Part shown: positions 5,509-56,037 of the stretch, in pieces | Numbering within the stretch: position 1 is the first letter of the stretch | Layout of the letters: each line of letters starts with the position of its first letter | Assembly: GCA_013290125.1 (NCBI GenBank) | Contig: JABCYQ010000008.1 | Location: 1-64,000 of the forward strand | From: Vulcanimicrobiota bacterium | Lineage (GTDB): Bacteria > Vulcanimicrobiota > Vulcanimicrobiia > Eremiobacterales > Eremiobacteraceae | DNA: 64,000 nt | Direction of reading: 5' to 3' | Made by a program: the position numbers and the translations under genes | The notes under the pieces: model-generated | The model's input: the letters and a program-made list of their open reading frames with translations, nothing else | Databases searched by the model: none | What the model was told of the DNA's origin: nothing

Positions 5509-6270
5509 GTGCGCTTATTTCGCGTCAGCCGTGATCTTACATCAGCCGATCGGTTGATCGCAAATGAGATCATCGCTGCGCACACGTGGGCTTTGCCGGG
5601 CATCCAGAACTGTCCCCGCTGTTACGAGACATGGGCGTCGTGCGTCGCATATCCGGACGTCGACCTTTCGGCGTTGCAAGGCCAAGAGCGTTACCGGATC
5701 CGCCGGCCGCAATCGCTTTATGTCGTGCACCGCATGCGAGAGGCGGTCCGACCGTTCGTCGCTCCCGGAACGGCGCTGCCGCCGGGCGCGGAGTTCGGTC
5801 CGCTGGTCGGACATGGAAAGGGAACGTTCGGCGATTTCGGCTGGCCGGCGTGGCCGGGCGTTATGCTCGTGCGGCCCGACGTGGCGCTGCGCCTTGAAGC
5901 GGCAGGCATCACCGGCCTCCGCGCGGTTCCGACCCGGATCACGTACTGGGGCAGTGAGGATCCGCTCTACCGCGAGGTCGTGTTCGGCTATGAGGGCCGC
6001 GTCTTCGATGAATCGCTGCCGCCGGGCGGCGCGCCGGCGTGCGCAGCGTGCGGCCATCGCGATCTTCCGAGCGGGCGGCGAGCGGCCATCGATCCGCACA
6101 CGGTGAGCGGCACGCTGGACGTCTTCCGCAGCATCGACGTGCCGTCGTGCATCTATGCCACGTCGGCATTCGTGGAGGCCGCGCAAGCATTGAGGCTCAC
6201 CGACATCTCGTTCGCGGAAGTGCCGACGACAAGATCGCGGACGACCCGCCGCGTTACGTATAGGTTATGA
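5509..6270 (+). CDS. Orphan SitI6-type double-CXXCG immunity-like protein
   Basis: A 253-residue soluble protein matching the myxobacterial double-CXXCG paralog family (Gmx_para_CXXCG, now associated with SitI6 immunity proteins). Seen features: an opening AHTWALPG followed by NCPRC (C35, C38) and YPDVDLS, a second knuckle CAACGHRDLP (C178, C181), and an ending DVFRS...DISFAEVP, all in the family order. In Myxococcus, SitI proteins protect against SitA toxins passed between kin cells; here no toxin gene adjoins. I chose GTG 5509 (GAAGG 8 nt upstream), which puts the family start MRLFR at residue 1. A composite palindromic element follows at once. Function as immunity protein is inference from family only. 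Confidence 0.75.
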   Translation: MRLFRVSRDLTSADRLIANEIIAAHTWALPGIQNCPRCYETWASCVAYPDVDLSALQGQERYRIRRPQSLYVVHRMREAVRPFVAPGTALPPGAEFGPLVGHGKGTFGDFGWPAWPGVMLVRPDVALRLEAAGITGLRAVPTRITYWGSEDPLYREVVFGYEGRVFDESLPPGGAPACAACGHRDLPSGRRAAIDPHTVSGTLDVFRSIDVPSCIYATSAFVEAAQALRLTDISFAEVPTTRSRTTRRVTYRL

Positions 6271-6336
6271 AGGGGCCGATTTTATATCGGCCCACGTTTT
6301 GTTCGCCCGGGCCGACATAAAGTCGGCCCCGTCGAT
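6270..6336. repeat. Composite palindromic element, copy 1
   Basis: Two hairpin units, GGGGCCGATTTTATATCGG and GGGCCGACATAAAGTCGG, are separated by about 15 bp. Read on the minus strand it matches the element at 38518-38585 almost base for base. It lies between the SitI6-like gene and the 3' end of purH, where it could also act as a two-way terminator. Confidence 0.85.
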
Positions 6337-6369
6337 AAATCGGCGCGGTCGGTCGAACGGCGCGATCGG

Positions 6370-16384: not shown

Positions 16385-16580
16385 CTATTTCAGCGGACCG
16401 CGCGGGCGCCTGGGCCATTAGTGAACAGCCCAAGCGAGCGTGAAACCGTCGGGTGTAGGGCTTACGAATCAATTGTCCCCGCTCGGGTGGTGACGGTTGG
16501 TGATTCGCGTAATTACACTCGGTTCGACGATTCGGCGAAGCGCTTTAGCTCAAGCGCTGCTATTCATTGAAGGAGTGTTC

Positions 16581-17627
16581 ATGTCTCGTAGAAATTCTGC
16601 GCTCTCCACTTGGGGATCGGCGATCGGCGCCGCTGCCGTTTGCTTGGCCGTCGCTGCCTGCGGCGGCGGTTCAACCTCTGTCGTGCCTCGTTCCGTCGGC
16701 GAGGGTCAGCCGGCACTGCAGCGCGTCTCCTCAACGAATTTCGCTCGCTCCGCAACCAGCAACACGTGGAGCACCGGTGCGACGGCGCCGACAAAGCGGT
16801 ATGCTGGTGGCGCCGCGGTAGTCGGAACGGATATCTACGTGGTGGGCGGATTCGATCCGCTCGGCGTGCTCGGTAAGAACGAGATCTACGACACCGCGAC
16901 CAACACCTGGAAGACCGGTGCGTCGATGCCGACGAAACGCTACGCGCTTGCGGCGGCGGCCGTCAACGGCATCGTGTACGCGATCGGCGGAGCCGACGTG
17001 GCCAACAATACATTGAACACCGTGGAAGCTTATGATCCGGTGGCCAACACCTGGTCGACAAAGGCGCCGCTTCCGACCGCCGTGGACAGCATCATCGCGA
17101 CCGTCGACAAGGGACTTATCTACATCGTCGGCGGCTTCAACACGGGCATCGGAAGATTCAACGGCGTGCAGGTCTACAACCCAGCGACGAACGTCTGGGC
17201 GAGCGCAGCGCCGCTGAACTTGGGCAAATCGTACGCTTATGTGGGAACTGTCGGCACGTCCATCGTCGCAGCGGGCGGACTTCTGAATTCCGGCAGCACG
17301 ACCGAAGACAACGAAGTCTACAGTCCGCATACGAACTCGTGGGCGACGAAGTTGCATATGGTGTCGCCGCGCCAAGCCGGCTGCGCAGGCGGTATCGGTA
17401 ACTTGCTGTACGCCGCCGGTGGCACGAAGAAAACGACGCCGCTCAATCACCTCGACGGTTACGATGCCAGGCTGAACACATGGACGAGTCTTGCGCCGAT
17501 GCCATTTGCGGTCATCGGACCGGAATCGGCGACAGTGAACGGCCTGCTCTACTGCATCGGGGGATCGAATAACGGCACGGCGGGCCACATCCAATATTAT
17601 GACTACGTGCAGATCTATCAGCCGTAG
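16581..17627 (+). CDS. Kelch-repeat lipoprotein (copy 1)
   Basis: A 348-residue lipoprotein with a Kelch beta-propeller. ATG 16581 follows GAAGGAG. The lipobox is VAAC|GGGS near residue 27, so the mature protein is lipid-anchored. About six Kelch blades follow, each with a double-glycine strand (YVVGG, YAIGG, YIVGG, YAAGG, YCIGG) and a TxxW tail (NTWST, NTWKT, NVWAS, NSWAT, NTWTS). The end YDYVQIYQP is shared with the next gene, a tandem paralog 28 bp downstream. Likely an extracytoplasmic binding scaffold; ligand unknown. Confidence 0.87.
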   Translation: MSRRNSALSTWGSAIGAAAVCLAVAACGGGSTSVVPRSVGEGQPALQRVSSTNFARSATSNTWSTGATAPTKRYAGGAAVVGTDIYVVGGFDPLGVLGKNEIYDTATNTWKTGASMPTKRYALAAAAVNGIVYAIGGADVANNTLNTVEAYDPVANTWSTKAPLPTAVDSIIATVDKGLIYIVGGFNTGIGRFNGVQVYNPATNVWASAAPLNLGKSYAYVGTVGTSIVAAGGLLNSGSTTEDNEVYSPHTNSWATKLHMVSPRQAGCAGGIGNLLYAAGGTKKTTPLNHLDGYDARLNTWTSLAPMPFAVIGPESATVNGLLYCIGGSNNGTAGHIQYYDYVQIYQP

Positions 17628-17655
17628 CATTCTGCTATCATCGGAAGGACGGGCC

Positions 17656-18699
17656 ATGTTCTCAGTGCATCCTCAGCGAAGGCTCTGGTCAACATCGGCG
17701 TGCGCGATCGCCGCAAGCATTTCGCTCGCCGCGTGCGGCGGCGGATCAAACGCGATACTACCTCACGCTGCAGGGCAGGGCGCCGCGGCGTCGCAACGCT
17801 CGTCGTCCGAAACTGTTGTTCGGTCCGCGACCAGCAACACGTGGAGCGCGGGCGCGCCGCTCCCCACGCGACGATACGGAGCGGCGGCGGCCGTTATTGG
17901 AACGAAAATCTACGTCATCGGCGGATTCTCCACACACGGAGACTTGGGAAAGAACGAAATCTACGACACGACGACCAATACGTGGAAGAGCGGTGCGCCG
18001 ATGCCGACGAAGCGAGCTGGATTGGCGCTCTCGGCGGTCAACGGCATCGTGTACGCGATAGGTGGCTCCAATGCGGGCGCGTCGCTCACAACGGTGGAGG
18101 CGTACGACCCGGTTCACGATACGTGGTCCGCAAAGGCTTCGCTTCCTACAGCGGTCGATAGCGCGGACGCTGCTGTCGACAACGGACTCATCTACGTGGT
18201 CGGCGGTTTTAGTAGCGTAACCGGGATGCGGCTGAGCACCGTTGAGACGTACAACGCGACGACGAACGTCTGGGGAACCGTGACGCCGTTGACGGTCGCG
18301 AAATCGGGCTCCTTTTCAGCTACGGTCGGCGCGAATATCGTGTCGGCTGGCGGCTTTTCCAGTGCCGGCCACGCGACGGATGACAACGAACTCTACAAAG
18401 TGACGAGGAACTCGTGGACGACCGAGAGGATCATGCCGTCGACGCGGTCGTCCGGATGCGCTGCCGGAATCGGCGGATCATTGTACGCGGCGGGCGGCGT
18501 GAAGACCAACACTTCGACATCCAATGCCCTTGCCGCGTTCGACGTAACGACAGACACGTGGTCCACTCTCGCGCCGATGCCGTTTGCTGTCGTCGCACCC
18601 GCGTCGGCAACGGTCAACGGCTTGCTTTACTGCTTCGGCGGTGCGAACAAGACGCCGCCGACATCGTACTTCAACTACGTGCAGATCTATCAGCCGTAA
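17656..18699 (+). CDS. Kelch-repeat lipoprotein (copy 2)
   Basis: A 347-residue tandem paralog of the preceding gene. ATG 17656 follows GGAAGGAC. The lipobox is SLAAC|GGGS. Kelch blades contain YVIGGF, YAIGGS, YVVGGF, YAAGGV and YCFGGA with TxxW tails (NTWSA, NTWKS, DTWSA, NVWGT, NSWTT, DTWST). It ends FNYVQIYQP like copy 1. Divergence of the two is moderate, so duplication is not recent. Spacing of 28 bp suggests co-transcription. Confidence 0.87.
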   Translation: MFSVHPQRRLWSTSACAIAASISLAACGGGSNAILPHAAGQGAAASQRSSSETVVRSATSNTWSAGAPLPTRRYGAAAAVIGTKIYVIGGFSTHGDLGKNEIYDTTTNTWKSGAPMPTKRAGLALSAVNGIVYAIGGSNAGASLTTVEAYDPVHDTWSAKASLPTAVDSADAAVDNGLIYVVGGFSSVTGMRLSTVETYNATTNVWGTVTPLTVAKSGSFSATVGANIVSAGGFSSAGHATDDNELYKVTRNSWTTERIMPSTRSSGCAAGIGGSLYAAGGVKTNTSTSNALAAFDVTTDTWSTLAPMPFAVVAPASATVNGLLYCFGGANKTPPTSYFNYVQIYQP

Positions 18700-20380: not shown

Positions 20381-20427
20381 AAACCGAACTGAGCGCCGCA
20401 GCTTATTTCTCGTCGGGTGGTGTTCCG

Positions 20428-20476
20428 CCCCGTGACTTCAGGGCGCGCCTTTACGGCGCGCCCTGAAGTCACGGGG
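20428..20476. repeat. Perfect 22-bp palindrome with 5-nt loop
   Basis: Left arm 20428-20449 and right arm 20455-20476 are perfectly complementary (starting CCCCGTGACTTCAGGG), with loop TTTAC. It lies 14 bp beyond the stop of the glycine-rich surface protein. No poly-T follows on either strand, so a simple intrinsic terminator is not the whole explanation. Confidence 0.9.
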
Positions 20477-20490
20477 CTGTTGACCAGCTG

Positions 20491-28276: not shown

Positions 28277-28857
28277 GTTCGCTCGATCCGGCGCGCGCCG
28301 ATGAGCGGCTGCGGATCGGACCGAGCGCTCCGCGCCGACGGGCGCGCGTGGACGCGGAGATCTCCGTGCCGCCGCGCTTCGGCGTTCTGGCCGTCCTCGC
28401 GCTTTGCGCGGGCATCGTACAATCCACGGTCTTGAGCGGCGTGGAATTTCGCGGTGCGCACATCTCTCTGCTCATCGTGCTCGTCGTGTGGACGGGTCTG
28501 CGCTGCGGCGTCGTCACCGGCGGCTGGTTGGGACTGCTGGCGGGGTTGATCGCTGACGCCTTAGGCGGCAACGGCGTCAATGTCCTCGGTTTCACCTTGG
28601 CCGGATTCGGCACGGGCCTGCTCGCCAGTAGATTTTTCTGGGATTCGTTCCCGGTCTTCATCGCGGCGGTCGCCGGGGCGACTGCGCTGAGCGCGCTGCT
28701 GTCGTGGGCGACACTTGCGATCGCTTTCGGTGAACGCGGTGCGTTCGTGCGAGACTCGCACACAGCCGTGTGGGCGATGATCGTGAATTGTGCCCTCGCC
28801 GCGATCGCGCTTGCGCTCGTCCGCTTCGGCCGCAGCCGCGGCATGATCCGCACGTGA
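28273..28857 (+). CDS. mreD: Rod-shape determining protein MreD
   Basis: A 194-residue membrane protein with about five hydrophobic segments after a charged Arg-rich N-terminus. The family pattern SLLIVLVVWTGLRCG with GWLGLLAGLIADALGG is present. It starts at an ATG overlapping the mreC stop (ATGA) and ends at the GTGA shared with mrdA. Its position between mreC and PBP2 is decisive, since MreD is poorly conserved. Confidence 0.87.
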   Translation: MSSLDPARADERLRIGPSAPRRRARVDAEISVPPRFGVLAVLALCAGIVQSTVLSGVEFRGAHISLLIVLVVWTGLRCGVVTGGWLGLLAGLIADALGGNGVNVLGFTLAGFGTGLLASRFFWDSFPVFIAAVAGATALSALLSWATLAIAFGERGAFVRDSHTAVWAMIVNCALAAIALALVRFGRSRGMIRT

Positions 28858-30770
28858 CGTTCGTCTCGCAGCGTCAGCGCGCGAGTGCGCCGGAAACGCC
28901 TGCGACACGGCGAGCGCGCATCGTCGCGTTCGCCGCCGGGATCGCGATCGTGTTCGTGACGCTCGTCGTCCAGCTCGCCGGCGTACAGCTGCGCGACGGC
29001 GCGCACTACGCGCATCTCGCCGACCTCAACCAGTATCGCACGATTCCCGTCGCCGCGCCGCGCGGCGTGATCTACGACCGGCGCGGAACGGTCGTCGCGC
29101 GCAATCGCCCGTCGTTCGTCATCCAGATCGTGCCCATGCAACTGGCCGATCCGTCGGCCGAGATCGACGAGCTCAGCCGCATCATCGGCGTGCCGTCGTC
29201 GGAGATATGGAAGCGGCTCCTCCATCAGAACGGTGTCGCGTACGCGAACTTCGACGAGCTGGCCAATGCGATTCCACTCGGACCGATCACGGTCGCCGAC
29301 GACCTTAGTTCGCCTGTCGTAAGCAGGTTCGCGGAACAGGCGGATCACTTGCCTGGCACGGCCGTCGAACTGATCCCGGTGCGCGACTACCCCTACGGAA
29401 CGATAGGCTCGCATATCCTCGGTGAGGTCGGCCAGATCACCGCCACAGAATATGCTGCTCGACGATCGAACGGCTATGGGCCGAACGACGTCGTCGGCAA
29501 AGACGGTTTGGAATATCAGTACGACCGCGTGCTGCGCGGCGTGCGCGGCGGCCAACAGATCAAAGTCAATTCCGCGGGTCGCTTCGTTGCGGACGGCTTT
29601 CCTTTTGCAGCGCTGCCGGGCGACAGCCTCGACCTCACCATCGACTGGCGGCTGCAGCGCGCCGCCGAGACGGCCGTGGCTGCGCAATCGCGAATCGTCT
29701 CATTGCGCACCGGGCATCCGGTCGCCGGCGCGGCGATCGTCGAAGATCCGAACACCGGCGCGGTGCTTGCCCTCGTCAGCCAGCCGAACGTCGATCCGAA
29801 CGATTTCGCGACCGGCATCAGCGAGAAGCGCTACGCAGGCTACCTCGCCGACCCGCTCAATCCGCTTTTCAATCGCGCGATCGCAGGCAAATATCCCACC
29901 GGTTCGACGTTCAAGATGATCAGCGGCTCGGCCATCCTCGCATCAGGTCTGATGAGCGGATCGGACACGAAATACTGCGGCGGCGCGTTCGACCTGAACG
30001 GCTATATCTTTAACGATGACCTCGGCGGCGGCCACGGCACGCTGAACGTGCAGCGTGCTATCTCCGTCTCGTGCGATGTCTTCTTCTATCAAGTGGGTCA
30101 CGAGCTCGGCATCGACCGGCTCGACCACTACGCATCGGCGTTCGGCATCGGTCACCAGACCGGCATCGATCTGCCCGGCGAGACGATGGGCACGTTGCCG
30201 ACGCCCGAATGGAAAAAGAAAGTCGTCGGGGATGAGTGGTACGGCGGCGATACCGTGAACATGGCGATCGGCCAGGGATACGTCGAGGCGTCGCCGATCC
30301 AGATGCTGCGTGTCGCGGCTGCGGTGGCGAATGGCGGGCGCCTTTACGCGCCCTATCTCGTGGCCGACGTGCGCAACGTGCGCGGCAGGATCATCAAGAA
30401 CTTCGGTCCCGATCTTCAGGGATCCGTGCCGGTTCCGGAAGACGACCTCGCGATCGTCCGCGCCGGCATGCTCGGTGCGATCGAAGACCCGTTTGGAACG
30501 GCGCACAACGTGATGATCCCGGGCTTCCACTTTGCCGGAAAGACCGGCACTGCCGAGAATTCGCCGACGATCGACAATCCAAAAGGCTACAACCACACGT
30601 GGTTCGTGTGCTTCGCGCCGTACGACAACCCCAAGATCGCGATCGTCGTGTTTATGGATCGCACCGGCGGCTTCGGCGCGGTGAACGCGGCGCCCGTCGC
30701 GCAAGCGATCATCGAAGCGTACTTCCATATCCGCCCGGCGGGTCCGAACGGCTCGGGCATCCGTGATTAG
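28854..30770 (+). CDS. mrdA: Penicillin-binding protein 2 (elongasome transpeptidase)
   Basis: A 638-residue class B PBP cross-linking peptidoglycan during elongation. One TM segment lies near 24-45, then the dimerisation/pedestal domain (APRGVIYDRRGTVVARN), then the transpeptidase with active-site S351-x-x-K354 (GSTFKM), SxN-type motif SVSCDVFFY and KTGT at K563. Length fits PBP2. GTG 28854 overlaps the mreD stop. No rodA follows, although RodA is the usual partner. A hairpin at 30790 ends the operon. Confidence 0.94.
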   Translation: MTFVSQRQRASAPETPATRRARIVAFAAGIAIVFVTLVVQLAGVQLRDGAHYAHLADLNQYRTIPVAAPRGVIYDRRGTVVARNRPSFVIQIVPMQLADPSAEIDELSRIIGVPSSEIWKRLLHQNGVAYANFDELANAIPLGPITVADDLSSPVVSRFAEQADHLPGTAVELIPVRDYPYGTIGSHILGEVGQITATEYAARRSNGYGPNDVVGKDGLEYQYDRVLRGVRGGQQIKVNSAGRFVADGFPFAALPGDSLDLTIDWRLQRAAETAVAAQSRIVSLRTGHPVAGAAIVEDPNTGAVLALVSQPNVDPNDFATGISEKRYAGYLADPLNPLFNRAIAGKYPTGSTFKMISGSAILASGLMSGSDTKYCGGAFDLNGYIFNDDLGGGHGTLNVQRAISVSCDVFFYQVGHELGIDRLDHYASAFGIGHQTGIDLPGETMGTLPTPEWKKKVVGDEWYGGDTVNMAIGQGYVEASPIQMLRVAAAVANGGRLYAPYLVADVRNVRGRIIKNFGPDLQGSVPVPEDDLAIVRAGMLGAIEDPFGTAHNVMIPGFHFAGKTGTAENSPTIDNPKGYNHTWFVCFAPYDNPKIAIVVFMDRTGGFGAVNAAPVAQAIIEAYFHIRPAGPNGSGIRD

Positions 30771-30789: not shown

Positions 30790-30822
30790 GAAGGGGCCGA
30801 CTTTATGTCGGCCCCTTTTTAT
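30790..30822 (+). repeat. Composite palindromic element, left half (also terminator-like)
   Basis: GAAGGGGCCGACTTTATGTC and its complement arm form a hairpin followed by CTTTTTATAT. It matches the left half of the elements at 38518 and 55914, and may terminate the mre operon. Confidence 0.75.
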
Positions 30823-30972
30823 ATTACCCCGGCATCCCTCGGCGAAGTCTTCGCCGGGGACGCGGCGGACGTCGGGATATGATCTAATTCCGCCGCTCGA
30901 CTTCGGCGGCTCTCGCCGCCTCAGACGCCCCGGCTTTCGACATCGCCGATGATGCCGTGGCAGATCGAGAGC

Positions 30973-31131
30973 GGCCGGCACGGCATGCCCAAGCGAGGCG
31001 TTGAACAAGGAGCGGAGCCATGGATGGCGAGAGCGAGGAAGTGAACCGAACGACTGAGCGAGCTGGATGCGAGCGACTGAGCGAGCTGGATGCGAGCGAA
31101 GGAGCGTCCTCGCGGGGCATGCCGTGCGGCC
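30973..31131. repeat. MITE-like unit with 17-bp inverted ends
   Basis: GGCCGGCACGGCATGCCC (30973-30990) pairs with GGGCATGCCGTGCGGCC (31115-31131), one base gapped. Between them is a 23-bp tandem duplication, CGACTGAGCGAGCTGG..., at about 31053-31098. No transposase. It lies between the two separated halves of the composite element. Confidence 0.55.
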
Positions 31132-31151
31132 TTTGTATGTTGCGTCCAGAG

Positions 31152-31180
31152 AGGGCCGATATAAAACCGGCCCCTTCAGA
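31152..31180. repeat. Composite palindromic element, right half
   Basis: AGGGCCGATATAAAACCGG with CCCCTTCAG matches the right half of the element at 38518-38585. The left half lies 340 bp away at 30790. Confidence 0.7.
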
Positions 31181-31201: not shown

Positions 31202-32557
31202 CTATTCGCGGACGGCGGTCGGGTAGCTCGCGACGCTTGCGTGCCCGGCATCGTCGACGGAGCGCACGCCGAAGATGTAGTCGTCCTTGCTGACCGGCAC
31301 GGTCGCCGTCGTCACGTTGCCCACGTTCTTAGCGAACTGCCAGTCGGCGGCATCCGTTGCCCGCCAAACGATCTCGTAGCTCGCGGCGCCTGGTACTGCA
31401 GTCCAGCGCAGCAACGTATCGTAGCCCAGATGCGCGGCGACGAGCTGCGCACCGGTCGGCCGCGGCGGCGCCGTCGCGAGCATGGCGAGAGCCGCGACGT
31501 TCGCGCGCGTCGTCTGCGCCAGGTAGTCAAAGTCCATGAACTGCGGAAGATCGCCGAACTGCACGCCGTCTTGCACGCGCACGTCTTGATGCTGATGCGT
31601 GAAGTTCTCGTTCGGCTCGACGAATCTCACCGCCGAAAAACCGTCGGCTTGAAACGATTCTTGGTCGCCGCCGCGCAAGAAGCGATCGGCGCGCCAGATC
31701 TGGCGCACCGTGAAGTCGGGCAGATATTGCGGGATCACGTCGCCCACGAAACGCGCGAGTTCGCGCGACGGAGAATCGTTTTCGGAACCGACGAGATTCA
31801 CGCGGTCGTCGACGGACCCCACCGGAAGAGCTTCGCTGAAGACGCGGACCACCTTGGGTTCGTGCGCACCGTTGCCGCCCGTGCTGTTCCCGATGATGTC
31901 GTCGTTCAGATCAGCTTCTACCGCGGTGCCGGCGGTCTTCAACTCATCGGCGTAGTGTTGCGAGCCCCATAATCCGAGTTCTTCGCCGTCAAAGCACGCG
32001 AAGACGATCGTGCCGCGGAAATGATGGGGCGCCATGATCCGCGCCGCTTCGAGCACGGCCGATGTTGCCGACCCGTTGTCGTCCGCACCCGGCGCGACCC
32101 GAGTACCGTTCGTGCAGTCGCCGTTGCAGTCGTCGAAGTGGCTCGACATGATGTACAGCGGACCGGGTGAGTCGCCGCGCAGCGTCGCGATGACACTGGA
32201 CTCCGTGACGGCGCGTGGCGTTCGCGGAGTCTTCGGCTGCAGGTACGTATCCAGCCGCACCGTCATGCGGCCGCCGCTCTGTTGAGCGCTCGCTTCGAAT
32301 TGCGCCTTGATCCAGTCGCGGGCCGCGAAGACGCCCCTCGTCGCCGTGGAGGTCGTCTCCGAGAAGTCGTTACGAGTGAAGAAATTCACCAGCGTCGTGT
32401 CGTTCGTCCGCAAGCGGTCGGCACTGACTTGGGAGACGAGCGCGGCGATCTGCGGATCGACGGGCGGCGCTGTGATGGTCGAATCGTCTGCTGCCGCGGC
32501 CGCGACGGATAAGGCGGCGACAAGGCCCAATGCAATAACGGAAGTTCGAATCTTCAT
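31202..32557 (-). CDS. Exported M28-family zinc aminopeptidase
   Basis: A 451-residue secreted peptidase. ATG 32557 begins a clear signal peptide (MKIRTSVIALGLVAALSVAAAA). Zinc-site motifs of M28 are visible: SSHFDD, GADDNGSA, the catalytic Glu pair EELGLWGS, NDDIIGN, and FTHQHQD near the end of the domain. The last 90 residues (LGYDTLLRWTAVPGAASYEIVWR...) form a fibronectin III-like domain. Likely a periplasmic or secreted aminopeptidase feeding on peptides. It diverges from a DMT transporter; the composite repeat lies behind its 3' end. Confidence 0.9.
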   Translation of the reverse strand: MKIRTSVIALGLVAALSVAAAAADDSTITAPPVDPQIAALVSQVSADRLRTNDTTLVNFFTRNDFSETTSTATRGVFAARDWIKAQFEASAQQSGGRMTVRLDTYLQPKTPRTPRAVTESSVIATLRGDSPGPLYIMSSHFDDCNGDCTNGTRVAPGADDNGSATSAVLEAARIMAPHHFRGTIVFACFDGEELGLWGSQHYADELKTAGTAVEADLNDDIIGNSTGGNGAHEPKVVRVFSEALPVGSVDDRVNLVGSENDSPSRELARFVGDVIPQYLPDFTVRQIWRADRFLRGGDQESFQADGFSAVRFVEPNENFTHQHQDVRVQDGVQFGDLPQFMDFDYLAQTTRANVAALAMLATAPPRPTGAQLVAAHLGYDTLLRWTAVPGAASYEIVWRATDAADWQFAKNVGNVTTATVPVSKDDYIFGVRSVDDAGHASVASYPTAVRE

Positions 32558-32646
32558 GGTCCCTGGATTATACGCGGCGACCGCGGTTTCCGTGCGGGAG
32601 CGGATCGTCGGAAGGCTTGGGCGCCGGTGCGTACAACCGGCGTGAC

Positions 32647-33516
32647 GTGGGCATCCTTCTCGCGCTGCTCTCCGCAGTTGCGTACGGCGCATCCGACTAC
32701 ATGGGCGGCATCGCGAGCCGGCGGGCTCGCGTGCTTGCGGTCGTGGTCCTCTCGCAGCTCGTCGGACTCGCGATTCTGTTCATGGTCCTCCCGTTCTTGC
32801 CGGGGGCCACCGTCACTCCGAGCGATTGGCTGTTCGGCGCGCTGGCCGGCGTCACGGGTTCCTGCGGGATCGCGTTTCTCTATCGCGGTCTGTCGCGCGG
32901 GCGTATGAGCGTGGTCTCGCCTGTCACCGCAGTCGTCGCCGCCATCGCGCCGCTCGTGTTCGGACTTGCAAAAGGCGAGCGGCCGTCGCTGCTCGCGCTC
33001 GCCGGTGTGGCGATCGCACTCGTCGCGATCGCGCTGGTCACCGCCGCACCGAGCCAGCAAGACGCGAACGTGCCGGCGCGCGATGCGGGCAGCCCGTGGT
33101 GGCGCGAGCCAGGCGTGATCGATGCGCTCATCTCCGGTCTGGCGATCGGCGGCTTTTACATCCTGATCGCGCAAACGAATCCGGCCTCGGGCCTCTGGCC
33201 GCTCGTCCCTTCACGACTCGTCTCAGCGCTGATCTGTGCAGCCGCCGCGCTTGTCTTTCAGCATTCGCTGCGGCCAGTGGCCGGTTCGTTCCGGCTCATC
33301 GTCGCAGCGGGCGCGGTCGACATGGCGGCAAACGCGATGTACCTAGAGGCGACGCGGTTCGGCTATCTCTCGATCGTGGCTGTGCTCGCTTCGTTGTATC
33401 CCGCAAGCACCGTGGTGCTGGCGCGCGCGCTGCTGCGCGAAAGATTCACACCGGCCCAGAGCATCGGTCTTGCGTGCGCCGCTGCAGGTGTGGCGTGCAT
33501 CGCAGCCGGGAGATAG
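32647..33516 (+). CDS. DMT-superfamily (EamA) transporter
   Basis: A 289-residue ten-segment membrane protein of two EamA repeats. TM1 starts immediately (GILLALLSAVAYGASDYMGG), and the first repeat ends with SVVSPVTAVVAAIAPLVFGL; the second repeat ends YLSIVAVLASLYPASTVVLARALLRE and ACAAAGVACIAAG. GTG 32647 is preferred over TTG 32617 because it places TM1 at the N-terminus. Substrate unknown; families of this type export amino acids or metabolites. Confidence 0.85.
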   Translation: MGILLALLSAVAYGASDYMGGIASRRARVLAVVVLSQLVGLAILFMVLPFLPGATVTPSDWLFGALAGVTGSCGIAFLYRGLSRGRMSVVSPVTAVVAAIAPLVFGLAKGERPSLLALAGVAIALVAIALVTAAPSQQDANVPARDAGSPWWREPGVIDALISGLAIGGFYILIAQTNPASGLWPLVPSRLVSALICAAAALVFQHSLRPVAGSFRLIVAAGAVDMAANAMYLEATRFGYLSIVAVLASLYPASTVVLARALLRERFTPAQSIGLACAAAGVACIAAGR

Positions 33517-38462: not shown

Positions 38463-38517
38463 GCGTCTCCGATTGTCGCCGGTTGTCTGCCGGACCTCTT
38501 GATTGGGGCCGATTTCA

Positions 38518-38585
38518 TGAAGGGGCCGACTTTACGTCGGCCCGGGCGAAAATAACGTGGGCCGATATAAAATCGGCCCCTTCAT
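38518..38585. repeat. Composite palindromic element, full copy
   Basis: TGAAGGGGCCGACTTTACG begins one hairpin; GGGCCGATATAAAATCGG with CCCCTTCA closes the other. It is the reverse complement of the copy at 6270, and lies directly behind the parB stop. A further partial unit begins at 38505. Confidence 0.85.
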
Positions 38586-55913: not shown

Positions 55914-55983
55914 GTCTGAAGGGGCCGACTTTATGTCGGCCCCGCGAATATTACGTGTGCTGATATGAAATCGGCCCCTTCAG
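55914..55983. repeat. Composite palindromic element, full copy
   Basis: GAAGGGGCCGACTTTATGTC hairpin, a short spacer, and a second arm ATATGAAATCGGCCCCTTCAG. A truncated extra unit (GAAGGGGCCGACTTTGTC) precedes it from 55899. It lies just after the gyrB stop. Confidence 0.8.
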
Positions 55984-56037
55984 AGCAGTGACGCCGCTTG
56001 CCATGATACGCGTGCCAGATAAGGGAAGAAGAGACGC

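Follow-up and report, generated by a model that had tools for sequence, protein, structure and literature searches.

A TwoAYGGAY-like structured element with locus-specific stems among dispersed repeats stacked between convergent genes in an Eremiobacterota genome

The intergenic interval

In the window, the whole 64,000-nt stretch of DNA analysed here, a penicillin-binding protein gene and a convergent M28 peptidase gene are separated by a gap containing two GGGCCGA...TCGGCCC hairpins, T1 and T2, with two further units, modules A and B, between them (Table 1). The arms at 30790-30814 and 31153-31177 are 88% complementary with 338 nt in between, and T1, which carries a T-run, is terminator-like in a terminator scan. 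By pattern count the window holds eight T-type hairpins, all paired (four pairs), against a chance expectation of 0.58; the three other pairs are contiguous (6267-6344, 38508-38585 and 55915-55984). These figures confirm the description given in a first-pass annotation of the locus, that of a split composite element with its halves 340 bp apart and intact copies elsewhere.

Table 1 Features of the interval and its flanking genes
Feature	Position	Strand	Basis
Upstream gene, penicillin-binding protein (PBP2 type)	28770..30770	+	Pfam Transpeptidase 6.8e-61, PBP_dimer 2e-42; context only
T1 hairpin, GAAGGGGCCGACTTTATGTCGGCCCC then T5; left half of the T pair; intrinsic-terminator-like for the + gene	30790..30820	+	Terminator scan, repeat families, pattern count
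Module A, palindromic repeat, three-way-junction fold on the minus strand	30827..30960	-	Genome search, copy comparison, fold, arm control
Module B, structured element resembling TwoAYGGAY (two GGA-loop hairpins closed by a long P1 stem)	30974..31133	+	Covariance model R1, 48.1 bits, E 1.2e-9
Left P1 arm of B (inverted repeat first noted at 30973)	30973..30998	+	Arm comparison
B core, GAGCGGAGCCATGGATGGCGAGAGCGA: P2 hairpin, AUGGAU loop, GA-rich internal loop	31010..31036	+	Folds, copy comparison
P3 hairpin (UGGAU loop), duplicated in tandem as 23-bp units	31047..31092	+	Copy comparison; one unit in most copies
Right P1 arm of B (inverted repeat first noted at 31115)	31108..31131	+	Arm comparison
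T2 hairpin, in opposite orientation to T1; right half of the T pair	31153..31177	-	Repeat comparison, pattern count
Downstream convergent gene, M28-family peptidase	31202..32692	-	Pfam Peptidase_M28 1.5e-21; context only

Both parts of the gap are non-random, each recurring about 20-30 times in the genome, from which copies of A and B were collected by sequence search. Module A has about 30 copies there (search with 30820-30962); its minus strand, GGGGCGTCTGAGG...GCGTCCCC, was folded into a three-way junction resembling that of B. When copies are aligned, the genome is seen to hold T-T, T-A-T and T-A-B-T arrangements side by side, the T-A-T copies without B including L032, L040, L045, L047, L049 and L056, and this coexistence supports the stacking of repeat units. 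The interval is thus best explained as a stack of dispersed repeats between convergent genes, comprising the T1/T2 pair, the palindromic A and module B. The earlier proposal that a second element had landed in the spacer of a first is supported in so far as repeat units lie stacked between the two hairpins of a pair, and unsupported in that the insert is two modules and not a single 340-bp unit. Some copies (for example L033, L035, L036 and L039) carry a second, inverted A left arm 3′ of B, which the window copy lacks. In other genera of the family (L064, L065, L067 and L068; G004, G005 and G011-G013), A occurs without B in facing inverted pairs about 50-70 bp apart.

Fold and covariation of module B

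The inverted repeats previously noted at 30973 and 31115 are real and form the P1 stem of B, with 13 nt matching exactly (30978-30990/31115-31127) and an imperfect extension over the arms listed in Table 1. The 23-bp tandem duplication reported between them is likewise present (31047-31069/31070-31092, 96% identical) and proves to be a doubled P3 hairpin, which is single in most copies. Single-sequence folds give an identical shape across phyla: a long P1, a three-way junction, a P2 combining an (A)NGGAY loop with a GA-rich internal loop, and a P3 whose loop is of GGA type. The window copy has one AUGGAU and two UGGAU loops.

Among 23 aligned B copies, 37 of 47 pairs are changed on both sides, including all 23 pairs of P1, and the covariation score of the structure is 0.489, compared with 0.153 for shuffled alignments and 0.07-0.13 for slid structures. 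Of 116 copies, 98 have GGA in the P3 loop and 113 have it in the P2 loop, the latter count being inflated because the retrieval pattern itself contained GGA. The GA-rich internal loops of P2 are conserved among copies and are candidates for tandem GA.

Private stems and strand asymmetry

Across 85 distinct B copies, the P1 arms are unlike one another yet self-complementary, mostly over about 33 bp and in some cases over more than 60. The recX-recA element of G055 has 66 matching arm bases, reaching the recX start codon. The recX-recA interval of G046 was considered as an empty site and rejected, as inverted arms there are separated by an assembly gap (NN); the other members are compact.

Mismatches within the arms, read on the core strand with the inner 20 nt omitted, comprise 79 G:T and 26 A:C (binomial p ~1e-7, a guide only, as related copies are non-independent). 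Per element, 31 lean towards G:T and 5 towards A:C, with 12:0 in Chromatiales. The arms of module A, treated identically as a control, give 12:11 and no strand asymmetry, and an artefact of the test was accordingly rejected as the source of the bias. An excess of G.U over A.C mismatches indicates that the core strand is the folding strand, whether in the form of RNA or, possibly, of single-stranded DNA.

Empty and filled sites

Comparison with relatives for an empty site, proposed when the locus was first described, yields no clean one at the window locus itself and succeeds at two others. The orthologous site in G001, the nearest relative, has no T, A or B; in their place stand about six tandem 33-bp hairpin units, and in G002 and the other genera examined a different downstream gene breaks synteny, so that the window locus offers no clean empty site. 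The units of the G001 array (L252, G001:C23 ~87335-87542) belong to another hairpin, GCGGACCTTTATGGTCCGC.

At atpG-atpD in genus g12 (gene names assigned by eye from conserved sequence), six genomes are empty (G016, G041, G072, G071, G053 and G021) and nine are filled, with elements in both orientations. In the six filled sites that were parsed, a comparison that left out G067, G068 and G070, the right arm terminates in a stretch that repeats the final 12 bases of atpG in inverted orientation, matching at 12, 11, 10, 10, 10 and 9 of 12 positions; the same comparison at empty sites gives 4 to 6 of 12, with one at 9. In genus g27, B lies 3′ of a gene in G044 whose final codons reappear inverted in the right arm, and G035, G060 and G038 are empty. 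At two loci with empty relatives, the arms of B thus carry the end of the host gene copied in inverted orientation. No target-site duplication was noticed by eye at either, the filled sites showing the inverted gene end instead. In the neighbourhood of rnpB, a single locus, G000, the genome of the window, and G001 have collinear flanks but opposite orientations of the A-B cassette, an inversion in place. At the g27 locus, G108 has a half element (L280, G108:C55, 1760-1960) that keeps the left arm and half of the core, the right half being deleted.

Distribution

The window's genome has about 20 dispersed matches to B (search with 30960-31140), or 19 by the covariance model R1 when more candidates were scored. 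The exact B core is found in 30 of 117 genomes of the class and R1 matches in at least 84 of 117, from at least 1 to 22 per genome; these class-wide counts are lower bounds, 28 candidates having been scored per genome. When more candidates were scored, a Chromatiales MAG gave 19 matches, and 77 and 80 were found in two MAGs with the labels Planctomycetota and Kuenenia. Named records with the B core are mainly from Candidatus Eremiobacterota, the phylum of the window, and also from Chromatiales, planctomycete, Pirellulales and Kuenenia-labelled MAGs and one labelled Eisenbacteria, these names being MAG labels that may include misbinned contigs. The B-type fold family spans several bacterial phyla, with up to about 80 copies per genome. 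In the literature searched, we met no account of repeats of this kind in Eremiobacterota.

Copies of B are frequent at contig ends (L190; G034:C4, G034:C8 and G058:C72), and at one site inverted arms flank an NN gap; the palindromes seem to break assemblies, so that copy counts would be low. Elements of the B type would account for many of the intergenic repeats in Eremiobacterota genomes and of the breaks in their assemblies. In two different families (L132, element 6233-6366, minus strand; L154, 160-294, plus strand), B shares its strand with flgF-flgG and precedes these genes by about 155-160 bp, and in both genomes csrA is, by search coordinates, about 9.7 kb from B on the same contig.

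Relation to TwoAYGGAY

The fold of B recalls TwoAYGGAY (RF01731), which PMC2864571 presents as a probable RNA, not cis-regulatory, with gut, gamma-proteobacterial and Clostridiales hosts, and for which PMC4333381 describes tandem GA in one stem, an external stem that is 'not well conserved' and predicted CsrA binding. Beyond that prediction, nothing on TwoAYGGAY function was found in the literature searched. The two share an external stem, weakly conserved in sequence (P1 in B), around two hairpins with AYGGAY-type loops.

Scores set them apart. The window copy has no match to RF01731 among those listed up to E 5 and lies below the gathering score of 43 bits, the genome G000 is without any match, and an Rfam scan of the window region returned chance-level matches only. 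L122 and L134 reach 32.3 and 31.5 bits across whole elements. Among 25 genomes scanned, one copy passes (G044:C118:1315-1491, 43.6 bits, also an R1 match), and the remaining matches, many at R1 positions, score 21-33 bits. As the window copy falls below gathering, we call B TwoAYGGAY-like and not a member. Nearly all other B copies also score below gathering; the hosts of B include Eremiobacterota and planctomycete-labelled MAGs, which are not among the reported hosts of TwoAYGGAY; and B is dispersed at high copy with arms derived from its flanks, neither of which is mentioned in the accessible parts of PMC2864571 and PMC4333381.

A possible link to CsrA

Like the CsrA/RsmA-binding RNAs CsrB, RsmY and RsmZ, B has at least two hairpins with GGA in the loop per RNA, and its host has csrA: the window's genome carries a single csrA, and 93 of the 117 class genomes have the gene. 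It differs from them in having few hairpins per RNA and many loci per genome, in its conserved junction and GA internal loop, and in that CsrA binding is putative and some of its hosts are without csrA. B occurs in 73 of 93 genomes with csrA and in 11 of 24 without (odds ratio ~4.3, phylogeny ignored). At least one lineage (G054, 97% complete, and G086) has B copies and no detectable csrA, from which it follows that CsrA is not obligatory. CsrA binding by B is a hypothesis.

A model for stem growth and its alternatives

The evidence tilts, if modestly, towards B being a mobile or once-mobile TwoAYGGAY-like RNA with a stem grown and repaired by template switching, and one that probably binds CsrA. 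Under this model, copies would have spread into the 3′ regions of genes, and replication template switching at the hairpin would extend the stem into flanking DNA while also keeping the arms matched and flipping the middle; selection would hold the core strand in a form foldable as RNA. With less certainty, the paired GGA loops may bind CsrA, such that transcribed copies would act as dispersed CsrA-titrating or CsrA-responsive RNAs. Template switching can create and maintain RNA hairpins and stems (PMC8794818) and, according to PMC8604942, homogenises arms and inverts spacers, so that arm matching and the A-B inversion are among its expected products. Elements of type B resemble hairpins generated in this way (PMC8794818 and PMC8604942) in that adjacent sequence is copied as its reverse complement, arms are homogenised and spacers are inverted. 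They differ in that the process would recur at many loci, each time around the same conserved structured core. Their locus-specific stems would form a natural series for studying how template switching builds and mends RNA hairpins, which bears on the origin of compensatory changes, and an orphan Rfam family whose function is listed as unknown would emerge as an abundant repeat-like RNA of several phyla, with CsrA as a candidate partner.

A distinct proposal, which we advance tentatively, is that a conserved structured RNA of the TwoAYGGAY superfamily is itself mobile, and that insertion, or the early life of a copy after insertion, would copy adjacent host DNA in inverted form, giving each copy a private duplex stem. 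If true, bacteria would show a new way in which genomes are colonised and long hairpin RNAs are made.

REP/BIME, ERIC and MITE-type palindromes are short, dispersed and intergenic and prefer the 3′ ends of genes. B shares these properties, being also palindromic, and differs in its conserved centre, arms that vary by locus and strand-specific pairing. Selfish DNA of the REP/MITE type, in which a palindrome is moved by a transposase acting in trans on a folded single strand and template switching alone matches the arms, with no RNA function, is a possible but less likely alternative. The dispersal of B in many copies across unrelated phyla speaks for it, tolerance of G.T on one strand would equally fit folded single-stranded DNA, and module A is without strand asymmetry; the conserved features of B (its GGA loops, its junction and its GA internal loop), however, exceed the usual needs of a transposase end, and B copies have no terminal inverted repeats in common, as those of a MITE would.

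Gene setting bears on the view that B is an intergenic terminator or a stabiliser of mRNA 3′ ends, its hairpins stopping transcription of convergent genes or blocking exonucleases. By a simple ORF caller, 34 B elements lie between convergent, 31 between codirectional and 3 between divergent gene pairs, and this avoidance of divergent pairs, together with the terminator-like T1, speaks for such a role; B itself, however, has no T-run and, unlike a typical mRNA leader, no orientation bias to neighbouring genes (13 versus 18 at codirectional sites), its conserved core would be left unexplained and relatives lack it at the same sites. We regard this role as improbable. The setting fits tolerance in gene 3′ regions, from which a cis role does not follow.

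Insertion of cores into pre-existing palindromes would account for locus-specific arms, but is contradicted at two loci, where the empty orthologous sites (atpG-atpD and the G044 locus) have no such palindrome, and it retains very little credence. Scarcely credible, too, is the first-pass model of a single 340-bp MITE-like unit in the spacer of a composite element: T pairs without an insert do occur in the same genome, but the gap holds two modules, copies with A alone between T hairpins largely refute it, the arms of B are copy-specific and remain self-complementary in place of the shared MITE-like ends it supposed, and no target-site duplication was seen at the ends of the 340-bp piece, where a search for direct repeats of at least 12 nt, which very short ones may escape, found none besides the T hairpins.

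Two further features were recorded elsewhere in the window. An intergenic 32-bp inverted repeat (88%, 5-nt loop) at 20418-20486 is unrelated in sequence to T, A and B. At 16497-18699, two neighbouring ORFs share a 45-nt stretch and one of 25 nt that is identical, at a spacing of about 1075 nt, suggesting tandem gene duplication.
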